Under the pieces are notes generated by a model. It searched no databases. It saw only the letters and a list, made by a program, of their open reading frames with translations, and was not told where the DNA came from. From positions 1 to 64,000 of the forward strand of contig QQUJ01000019.1 of assembly GCA_008501635.1 (NCBI GenBank): 64,000 nucleotides of DNA. Reading direction: 5' to 3'. The position numbers were made by a program, and so were the translations under genes. Below, in pieces: positions 58,350-61,576 of this stretch (within the stretch, counting starts at the first letter, position 1; every line of letters starts with the position of its first letter). This DNA comes from Pseudomonadota bacterium. GTDB lineage: Bacteria; Pseudomonadota; Gammaproteobacteria; QQUJ01.

Positions 58350-59690
58350 TCAGTGTACTGCTGTCGTCTGATCAAGCCCGTGTTGGATTCGCGGCCAGTA
58401 CTGCTCGAAATCGAAAAGCGGGCTGTGGCTACGATTATGACAGTCAAGACAAACCAACTTGTCTGGTCTCACCGGTTTTAAAAGCGGCGCAGTCCCCGAG
58501 CTGGCAATATGGTCCTGTCCCGGCCCGTGGCAAACTTCGCATTGCACGTTGAGCCGATCTGCCGTGATCTGCGGATCGACAAATCCCCCGGGTTGATTGA
58601 AAGCGACGGTATGACAACCCAAGCAGTTGGCATCGAACGCTTTGTCGACGCGCTCCAGCGTGGCGAAGGCGCGGGCGTGGCGGCTGCTTTTCCATATCTT
58701 GTAGGCATCGGTGTGGCAGCTGCCGCAAGCTGCATCGCCGGCGTAAGGCGAGGGCTCTGCGGCGCGCGCCTTACGAGTTGCGACGCGTTCTTTGTAATCG
58801 GCCTTTAAAGCGTCTGTGAACGCCTCATACCATGCTCTTAGGCGCTCTGCATTAGCCACCTTGCTCGGTAGATTCACCACTTGCTGGTGAGCGCCTGTGA
58901 TTCTCCCGGCCGCGTTCCTCTGTACCTCGATCAGCGCCAGCCGCTGCCCGCGTGATCCGGGCTGCAGATAGAGGGTGCCGTTTTCCATTACCGGCTCGCC
59001 ATACATCTCGTAATTGGATTGGAGAATAACGATATCGGCCAGGGCGACGGGAAGGCGTGCGCTGGCCTCCGGACGCGGCAGCGTGGTGGACAACACAGTC
59101 AGAGCGCCGTCCGCGCGGGCACTGCGCAGAGCGCGCTCGAGCGCGCCGGTGGTGGTGTCGACCGGAAAGTGGTTGCCCTTCATCTCACGGTACGGCGATT
59201 GCTCCGGGTCCAACCATTGGAAGAAAGCCAGAGTTGTCCCGCCGCGTTTGATTCGCTTTTCAGTCGCATAGCGCTTGTCGGGCCAATTGCTGGCGACTAT
59301 CGGAAGCCCGCTCGCGGCGATGAACTCGGTGCCGTAGGCCAAGTCCTTCCACTGAAGCCCGATTGCATCGAAGCCCTGTTCGGCCATTCCGGAGAGAATG
59401 AACTGACTGGTGATCCTGTCGGTTGCAATGGCGCTGTTGAACAGACCACCGGAATGAACCATGAAGAGTTCGGGGTGGCGGGCGCGGAACTGGTCGATTA
59501 TCTCCGTCTGTCTGAGTATGCCCCCTAAATCGCCCTCTTCGGTGCATCCGCAGGGCTCCAGTTCACCGTCGAGGTTGCCCATGTAAATCAAGCGTACCGA
59601 CTCGGGTGGTACGGCTGTTCGCGAGGTGCATCCAACACTTGGCAGCACAGCCAAGCATAACAGACAGGTAATTTGTGCTAGCGTTTTCAT
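58350..59690 (-). CDS. Lipoprotein tetraheme cytochrome c with an N-terminal degenerate metallophosphatase-like domain
   Basis: The 446-residue product has a lipobox (LPSVGC, Cys21). An N-terminal domain of about 280 residues follows, resembling 5'-nucleotidase/UshA-type phosphoesterases (GNLDGELEPCGC...GGILR, VHSGGLFN, FDAIGLQWKDL). Metal ligands normally in these motifs (DxH, GD, GNHE) are replaced, so it is probably not a phosphatase. The C-terminus has four CxxCH sites: 322-326, 356-360, 384-388, 414-418, arranged like cytochrome c554-family domains. It is the last gene of the nudJ-mnmA-hflD strand, 17 bp after hflD. Where E. coli has purB, this gene stands. Confidence 0.85.
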   Translation of the reverse strand: MKTLAQITCLLCLAVLPSVGCTSRTAVPPESVRLIYMGNLDGELEPCGCTEEGDLGGILRQTEIIDQFRARHPELFMVHSGGLFNSAIATDRITSQFILSGMAEQGFDAIGLQWKDLAYGTEFIAASGLPIVASNWPDKRYATEKRIKRGGTTLAFFQWLDPEQSPYREMKGNHFPVDTTTGALERALRSARADGALTVLSTTLPRPEASARLPVALADIVILQSNYEMYGEPVMENGTLYLQPGSRGQRLALIEVQRNAAGRITGAHQQVVNLPSKVANAERLRAWYEAFTDALKADYKERVATRKARAAEPSPYAGDAACGSCHTDAYKIWKSSRHARAFATLERVDKAFDANCLGCHTVAFNQPGGFVDPQITADRLNVQCEVCHGPGQDHIASSGTAPLLKPVRPDKLVCLDCHNRSHSPLFDFEQYWPRIQHGLDQTTAVH

Positions 59691-59707: not shown

Positions 59708-60352
59708 CTATTCAAGCGACTCCGCCGGTCTGAGATCGGCGATCAGCTCAGCGGCTTCGCGGCCTATCGATTTCTGACCTAGAATGAGTTGCCAGCGCTT
59801 GCCCCCGCACTGACGCCAAAGAACAATCGAACGAATACCCGCCAGTAACAGGGTGCGAATTCGATTGGCATTGATCTGGTTCGACAAATGAACGTGCTCG
59901 CCGTTCACCATGATTCTGGGCTTCAAGGTACTAACAGTGTTCAGGTAAGTGTCGGCAAGGCTGGCAAGCACATTGGCGTGTTGCGTCCCGAAATGGGCTG
60001 CCTGTTGTGCGGCGCGTTCGATACCTTCGCGAAGGCGGGCGAGCATTTCCCGATCGGCTGTGAGTTTTCGTTGGAGATAAAGCAGGGAAACGACATACTT
60101 GGCGATTTCGATGTCACGGGACTCTTTACCCCCCTGAATCTGACGCTGGAGTTGCTGCAGCCCCGTAAGTACACCACCTCCTGTTCCGAACACGGCTTCA
60201 ACATCCTTGGCGTCGATCTGAAACAGGCTGTGCAGACTGGCTTCGAACGCAGCCGCCTCGACTTTGCCGGTATAAGCAATCGTTTGCACCAGGGACACAG
60301 CCTGGAACAGTCCTCCCAGGGCCAACGTGCGGTTTCTGCTGTTCTGAATCAA
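59708..60352 (-). CDS. hflD: High frequency lysogenization protein HflD
   Basis: HflD is a conserved peripheral membrane protein, in E. coli affecting lambda CII, with an unclear native role. The 214 residues are highly alpha-helical, with LGGLFQAVSLVQTIAYTG near the start and VLASLADTYLNTVSTLKPRIMVNG in the second half. Start is TTG (60352). The order mnmA-hflD supports it. Confidence 0.92.
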   Translation of the reverse strand: MIQNSRNRTLALGGLFQAVSLVQTIAYTGKVEAAAFEASLHSLFQIDAKDVEAVFGTGGGVLTGLQQLQRQIQGGKESRDIEIAKYVVSLLYLQRKLTADREMLARLREGIERAAQQAAHFGTQHANVLASLADTYLNTVSTLKPRIMVNGEHVHLSNQINANRIRTLLLAGIRSIVLWRQCGGKRWQLILGQKSIGREAAELIADLRPAESLE

Positions 60353-60366
60353 GAAGTGTTCTGTCT

Positions 60367-61527
60367 CTAAGCTGATGAGGTGGATGTGTGTGTGACTTCG
60401 AGGCCCGGTCCAATCTGCAGTTCAGCAGCATTGCCTTCAAGGTGTTCGATAGTGCCGCCGCCGAGGCACTCCTCATTGCGGTAGAAAACAACTGATTGAC
60501 CTGGGGTGACTGCGCGTTGCGGTCGTTCAAAGCGCACTCTACACCTCTGGCTGTCGAGGGCGACAATGGTCGCGCCTTGATCGGGTTGACGATAACGCAC
60601 CTTGAGCGTGCATCGAAAAGGCGTTTCTGGCGCCGTTCCGCTCACCCAATGGACATCCGTCGCCGTCAAGCCGGTGCTCAGCAACGCCGGGTGGTCGCCA
60701 CCCTGGACGACGATCAATGTATTTTCATCCAGATTTTTCCCGGCAACATACCATGGGTCGGGCGCGGCATCGCGTAATCCGCCGATGCCCAGCCCCTGGC
60801 GCTGGCCGAGGGTGTAATACATCAGGCCCTCATGATGGCCGACGACACGGCCATCGAGCGTTTTTATCAATCCTGGGCGGGCGGGAAGATAGCGTTGCAG
60901 GAAACTTTTGAATTGGCGCTCACCTATAAAACAGATGCCCGTGCTGTCCTTCTTGTTGTGAGTTGGAAAGCCAGCTTGCTGCGCCAGAAGCCTAACTTCC
61001 GATTTGAGCAGTTGCCCGATCGGGAACAGGCTGTGTGACAGCGGTTTCTGGCCCAAGGTGTACAGAAAGTAGCTCTGATCCTTGTCTGAATCTGCTCCGC
61101 GCAGCAGATGATAGCCTCCCCCATCGAGGTGGCATCGTGCGTAGTGACCGGTGGCTATGGCATCTGCACCTTGATCGAGTGCGAAGTCGAGAAAGGCACG
61201 AAACTTGATCTCCTTGTTGCACAGAATGTCGGGATTCGGCGTCCTGCCGGCGCTGTATTCCGCCAGGAATCGCTCAAACACCTTCTCCCAGTACTCGAAG
61301 GAGAAGTTTACCGCGCGCCATGGAATATCTAGGATGCGGCAGACGGCTTCGACGTCCGCCATATCTTCTGACGCTGAGCACTTGCCCCCGTTGTCATCTT
61401 CGTCCCAGTTTTTCATGAATAGGCCATGGACATCGTGGCCCTGTTGCTTCAGTAACAGGGCGGCCACAGAGGAGTCCACGCCTCCGGACATACCGACGAT
61501 GACGTGTTTAGGAGATCGCTTTGTCAT
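60367..61527 (-). CDS. mnmA: tRNA-specific 2-thiouridylase MnmA
   Basis: MnmA adds sulfur to U34 of tRNA Lys, Glu and Gln. The 386 residues have the PP-loop [12 protein letters not shown], catalytic Cys103 ([12 protein letters not shown]) and Cys199 ([10 protein letters not shown]), as in E. coli Cys102/Cys199. ATG at 61527 rather than the TTG at 61551. It precedes hflD by 14 bp. Confidence 0.96.
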
Positions 61528-61576
61528 GCCGTTGTGAAAAAGCCCGGGCAATCGGGCCGCTTGTCACTCCTTGGGC

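Follow-up and report, generated by a model that had tools for sequence, protein, structure and literature searches.

The analyzed stretch of DNA (64,000 nucleotides, hereafter the window) encodes a protein that combines a phosphoesterase fold and a tetraheme cytochrome part in one chain. Our results suggest that this protein is probably a dithiol-to-heme oxidoreductase, in which a redox-active CxC motif is coupled to the hemes. We also found a link, new in this study, of its family to DsbA and to genomes free of DsbB and VKOR. The single most likely role of the protein, which we put forward tentatively, would be to accept electrons from a DsbA-type oxidase, i.e., that of a cytochrome-linked DsbA re-oxidase.

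Architecture and family assignment

As summarized in Table 1, the gene shares its strand with hflD and mnmA. It is located downstream of hflD, with a gap of 18 bases, and mnmA is found upstream of hflD; the same order of mnmA, hflD, and family gene was also seen in another lineage (locus L096). The sequence-only reading had placed the gene after hflD as a replacement of purB. The position was correct, but purB loss in this genome was ruled out by an intact purB located ~120 kb from the window gene. As purB is intact elsewhere and the mnmA-hflD slot is used also in L096, the remark on its replacement carries no special meaning.

Table 1. Positions in the window of the gene, its encoded features, and the neighboring genes.
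Feature	Position	Strand	Basis
UshA-like CxC tetraheme cytochrome gene, 446 aa	58350..59690	-	open reading frame and translation, ATG start
Signal peptide and possible lipobox, residues 1-21 (SVG-C21)	59628..59690	-	sequence reading
UshA/5′-nucleotidase/SoxB-fold domain, ~residues 27-300	58791..59612	-	AlphaFold model; PDB matches, Z ~25; profile match to 3ivd, E 1.7e-10
C47-G48-C49 dithiol motif (PCGU/PCGC site)	59544..59552	-	70/70 gamma-type and 19/19 readable Nitrospinota-type relatives
HSGG (79-82) replacing DAGD	59445..59456	-	hhalign vs. UshA; alignment column table
QWKD (113-116) replacing GNHE	59343..59354	-	hhalign vs. UshA; alignment column table
Cytochrome c554-like tetraheme domain, ~residues 314-437	58380..58751	-	PF13435; c554 profile, E 4e-17; separate model vs. 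1ft6
Heme 1 CGSCH	58713..58727	-	sequence; invariant
Heme 2 CLGCH	58611..58625	-	sequence; invariant
Heme 3 CEVCH	58527..58541	-	sequence; invariant
Heme 4 CLDCH	58437..58451	-	sequence; invariant
hflD (context only)	59708..60352	-	NCBIfam HflD, 235 bits, above cut-off
mnmA (context only)	60367..61551	-	NCBIfam MnmA, 469 bits, above cut-off

An AlphaFold model of the protein was built on 70 sequences (mean pLDDT 83.5). Residues 27–300 have the calcineurin-like fold of UshA/5′-nucleotidase enzymes; VIA-align placed 265–269 residues on 5′-nucleotidases with Z 25.6 and rmsd 2.8–2.9, and SoxB was the next-nearest fold (Z ~24). When the tetraheme half was modeled alone, the nearest structure was cytochrome c554 of Nitrosomonas (1ft6), with a Foldseek E value of 4e-3 and a VIA-align Z of 9.0 (rmsd 4.1, 133 residues). 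Sequence profiles compared with solved structures returned the same two halves, nucleotidase and cytochrome c554 (E values in Table 1). The C-terminal half exceeds the gathering score of PF13435 (Cytochrome_C554; 56 bits vs. cut-off 20.8) and contains four CxxCH motifs, at residues 322, 356, 384, and 414. Four more histidines (H338, H394, H422, and H437) are invariant or nearly so and could be the axial ligands of the hemes. Both parts of the layout read earlier from the letters, a UshA/5′-nucleotidase region and four CxxCH hemes in a c554-like block, were supported by structure prediction, and an unrelated N-terminal fold was not seen. The same architecture was observed in more than 100 homologous loci and is therefore not a product of chance. 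The protein is exported, and possibly membrane-anchored: of the earlier assignment as a lipoprotein the export part stood, while SVG-C21 is a plausible lipobox of non-canonical form. The closest homologue (L019) has a clear lipobox; the strict pattern was detected in 11 of 76 relatives, and lipoboxes are variable across the family.

Comparison with NCBIfam models showed a match of the window protein to NF041198, “UshA-like (seleno)protein” (UshA_like_PCGU), with an E value of 3.3e-57 and 194.3 bits, which does not reach the curated cut-off of 275. The match extends to both ends of the model (profile 8–273 and 351–519). All 70 members of the alignment matched the model as well, and the relatives scanned scored 179–265 bits, all under the same cut-off. 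The window protein has the two-part layout of NF041198, with UshA-like and c554-like halves in one chain, and its PCG[U/C] motif after the first phosphoesterase motif. It differs by ~75 missing model positions between the halves, by the presence of Cys and not Sec, and by the replacement of all UshA metal ligands. Since the match is strong but its score is below the cut-off, we place the protein, judging from its sequence, in a Cys-type sister subfamily of this named, uncharacterized family. The protein is no orphan pseudo-enzyme, and the fusion is not unusual. Reviews mention the NF041198-type family with its CxU motif without giving a function, and report Sec at the second Cys in named relatives (PMC13188914; PMC9312934); a UshA-like CxU of COG0737 has also been listed (PMC2398784). 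The family was named by NCBI, and the papers searched assign it no function; our literature search returned no function paper on this fusion and none on DsbB-free disulfide formation via cytochromes.

Replacement of the metal site and conservation of the CGC motif

Profile alignment of the window protein to true UshA enzymes (hhalign probability 99.7, E 2e-25) confirmed the loss of the metal site claimed in the sequence-only reading. NLD (residues 39–41) aligns to DxH, HSGG to DAGD, and QWKD to GNHE, and later UshA ligands are also replaced (T203 for H217, S225 for H252, and Y227 for H254). In place of the binuclear metal site (DxH, GD, GNH[DE], H, GHxH) the protein has N39/D41, G82, W114, T203, S225, and Y227. 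The 70 gamma-type relatives have other residues in place of the UshA metal ligands, and the hydrolase positions vary among them. In Nitrospinota-type relatives, DxH and GNHE are gone, whereas DTGD, TH, and often GH are retained. None of the gamma-type and Nitrospinota-type relatives compared has an intact DxH and GNHE, and the lost site stands on this point as well. In relation to UshA and CD73 5′-nucleotidases, the window protein thus shares the fold of residues 27–300 (Z ~25) and the order of motifs, but lacks all seven metal ligands, the catalytic His/Asp, and the C-terminal nucleotide-binding domain, and has an added CxC loop.

Immediately after the lost first metal motif lies ELEPCGC (residues 43–49), which had been overlooked in the earlier reading. 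Extended by one residue, GELEPCGC is the most conserved stretch of the N-domain, and C47, G48, C49, G56, G57, R60, D116, W159, R247, and the heme motifs are invariant in the 70 gamma-type sequences. The CxC loop was modeled with medium confidence (pLDDT ~63–68). All family members reached have Cys at the CGC site and none has selenocysteine. The in-frame stops of some matches fall outside this site, and selenocysteine in the window clade was rejected.

The loss of the metal site together with an invariant Cys-Gly-Cys, the second Cys of which corresponds to the reported Sec of named relatives, points to the CGC as a redox site and not a dead one. Sec at such a position is a usual sign of redox catalysis. 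From the aligned relatives, the metal site looks to have been lost in steps with the CxC kept throughout, which makes a purely dead enzyme unlikely. The sequence-only reading had taken the protein for a pseudo-enzyme fused to an electron-transfer module. On this view, the fold would only offer the cytochrome a scaffold or a surface for docking, and C47–C49 would be a structural element. Such a role agrees with the replacement of every hydrolase ligand in the gamma clade, yet a structural pair need not have an invariant CxC spacing or be replaceable by Sec, and the conservation of GELEPCGC also speaks against it; we regard this explanation as improbable. It is very improbable, in our estimate, that the CxC and the ligands remaining in Nitrospinota-type members form a metal-thiolate site with a redox or sensing function coupled to the hemes. 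These members do keep the D84 and H217 equivalents, and often GH, beside the CxC, but in the gamma clade, to which the window protein belongs, the CxC is retained without any of these ligands.

Distribution of the family and its pairing with DsbA

The fusion, for which a family search had been suggested, was found as full-length matches (E below 1e-80) in 41 of 369 sampled gammaproteobacterial genomes (~11%). In the group taken as Nitrospinota the family gene was present in 61 of 77 genomes. At least 530 stretches encoding relatives were obtained in a search of the genome contigs, and there was no match to the family on plasmids or viruses. The nearest relative of the window protein among the matches listed is L019 (52% identity, support 0.998). 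In gammaproteobacteria the gene is mostly solitary and no conserved operon was found; the contexts vary (mnmA-hflD, hemF, mazG, the miaB/lnt region, and a small monoheme cytochrome in six loci). The latter loci belong to one gamma clade (L020, L021, L022, L023, L024, and L049), in which the small cytochrome c (~110 aa) is encoded 73–90 bp downstream and is a possible electron acceptor. A gamma-type copy was also observed on a 5.7-kb contig of a MAG labeled Nitrospinia (L080/L208, G369:C115). This genome carries a Nitrospinota-type copy as well, and the gamma-type copy may reflect gene transfer or binning contamination. Stand-alone proteins of 193–223 aa resemble the tetraheme half only (E 1e-22 to 1e-24; G203:C80:50978-51349, G335:C37:5014-6277, and G306:C45:3704-4075); these could be free partners or paralogues of the C-terminal domain.

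In the Nitrospinota group, a gene for a DsbA-like CGHC protein (DSBA, 46 bits vs. 25.6; motif FNYSCGHCYRF) lies directly downstream of the family gene, on the same strand, in 19 of 20 family loci. The pair is retained in L181 and L193, though the next downstream gene differs. Other genes of the block are syntenic too, and the pairing is therefore in part a matter of inherited gene order. In most of the loci L177–L196, which belong to the phylum of G369, a C-terminal processing protease (Peptidase_S41 with PDZ) is encoded downstream of the DsbA-like gene. Among 88 gamma-type or related loci scanned, a clear DsbA-like neighbor was detected in one. In L019, a different DsbA-like gene (L019:1152-2360; PF13462/DSBA, NF041057-like) is located 13 bp upstream of the family gene. 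Its product has an extra N-terminal region, resembles the thioredoxin-like (seleno)lipoproteins of the Rcas_1661 family, and gave no BLAST match to the DsbA of the Nitrospinota type. In this locus, two families that include Sec forms are encoded side by side.

DsbB and VKOR were found in none of the 61 family-positive genomes of the Nitrospinota group. Within this group either protein occurred only in G439 and G441, both family-negative, a difference that is weak alone (hypergeometric p ~0.04, calculated by hand). For gammaproteobacteria we compared the first genome of each family (G000–G157). Canonical DsbB, defined by E < 1e-15, a cut chosen after seeing the values, was present in 0 of 14 family-positive vs. 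87 of 144 family-negative genomes (p = 6e-6). With the same post hoc threshold, the SoxB-negative subset gave 0 of 9 vs. 67 of 82 (p = 2e-6). Weak DsbB matches (E 4e-9 to 4e-13) were detected in 11 of 41 family-positive gammaproteobacteria. When any DsbB match was counted, the difference was non-significant with one genome per family (p = 0.15); in the full set it was 11/41 vs. 209/328 (p = 1e-5, uncorrected for kinship). The window’s genome gave no DsbB match. Many gammaproteobacteria without DsbB are also without the family; the loss of DsbB can therefore be explained in other ways, shared ancestry among them.

A dithiol/selenol-to-heme oxidoreductase could also act on a small sulfur, selenium, or metal substrate and not on DsbA, with the tetraheme half delivering or taking the electrons. 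The CGC motif and the Sec evidence fit this possibility equally, the invariant R60 and R247 lie near the former active site, where they could hold an oxyanion, SoxB, a sulfur enzyme, is among the closest folds, and most gamma members are without a DsbA neighbor. Against it, SoxB was present in 13/41 family-positive genomes vs. 151/369 overall and DsrA in 11/41 vs. 116/369, i.e., with no association, and a link to sulfur oxidation was rejected; there is no conserved metabolic operon, and the pairing with DsbA is left unexplained. We therefore consider a small substrate possible but rather unlikely. Relative to the SoxB thiosulfohydrolase, the window protein has a similar fold but no metal site and an added tetraheme half, and no match to the SoxB model TIGR04486 (cut-off 550 bits) was reported for it. 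A true SoxB is encoded elsewhere in the same genome (G000:C17:84507-86177; TIGR04486, 824 bits). This genome, which also has DsrA, is that of a sulfur oxidizer with a possible hydroxylamine-oxidation module: a hydroxylamine-oxidoreductase-like multiheme protein is encoded at G000:C16:54658-57533 (L004, L005), matches the hydrazine dehydrogenase model NF052343 below its cut-off, and lies near a CycA-like cytochrome c554. The C-terminal half of the window protein resembles the c554 (CycA) of Nitrosomonas, but is shorter and fused to a UshA-like part.

Proposed mechanism and comparison with known disulfide-forming systems

In the preferred reading, a phosphoesterase fold without the two-metal hydrolase site carries the CGC in the loop after the old first metal motif. 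C47 and C49 would accept two electrons from the dithiol of a partner by entering a disulfide with it. From the CGC the electrons would then move on singly, via the four c554-like hemes, into the periplasmic pool of cytochrome c. Among partners, a DsbA-type thiol oxidase has the best support; its CGHC dithiol would donate to the CGC, making the protein a cytochrome-linked counterpart of DsbB and VKOR. Past the gene pairing we infer every step, i.e., the redox activity of the CxC, its proximity to the hemes, the partner, the direction, and the same use in the window’s own genome.

The direction of electron flow could be the opposite, from cytochromes via the CxC to a DsbA-fold partner, e.g., during protein repair or the maturation of cytochrome c. 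A thioredoxin-fold neighbor is compatible with either direction, and reduced CxxCH thiols are required for heme attachment, including that of the family’s own hemes. On the other hand, the FNYSCGHCYRF of the neighbor is DsbA-like, a usually oxidizing fold, the missing partners are DsbB and VKOR, and c-type heme pools are usually higher in potential than CxxC dithiols. To the reductive direction we give little credence.

The oxidative reading resembles DsbB and VKOR in its proposed role only, the transfer of electrons from DsbA to the respiratory chain. DsbB and VKOR, which are missing where the pair of family and DsbA genes occurs, use quinone and have a CxxC in a membrane protein of four helices, whereas the window protein is a periplasmic heme protein with CxC. 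A comparable logic is found in the mitochondrial Mia40 (CPC)-Erv1-cytochrome c relay, in which a CxC dithiol makes disulfides and electrons pass on to cytochrome c. The folds are unrelated, and the window protein has its hemes in the same chain and no flavin.

A more far-reaching proposal, which we consider doubtful as a whole, is that the family represents a third kind of DsbA re-oxidase, in which the CxC (or Cys-Gly-Sec) of a periplasmic enzyme with a disarmed phosphoesterase fold passes electrons straight to c-type cytochromes, and that it replaces the membrane quinone enzymes DsbB and VKOR in Nitrospinota as well as in many gammaproteobacteria without DsbB. If the link to DsbA holds, it would explain how DsbA is re-oxidized in bacteria without DsbB or VKOR, marine nitrite oxidizers probably among them, and disulfide formation would be wired to cytochrome c within one polypeptide. 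It would also make sense of a puzzling selenoprotein family and be a clear example of a hydrolase fold converted to redox catalysis.
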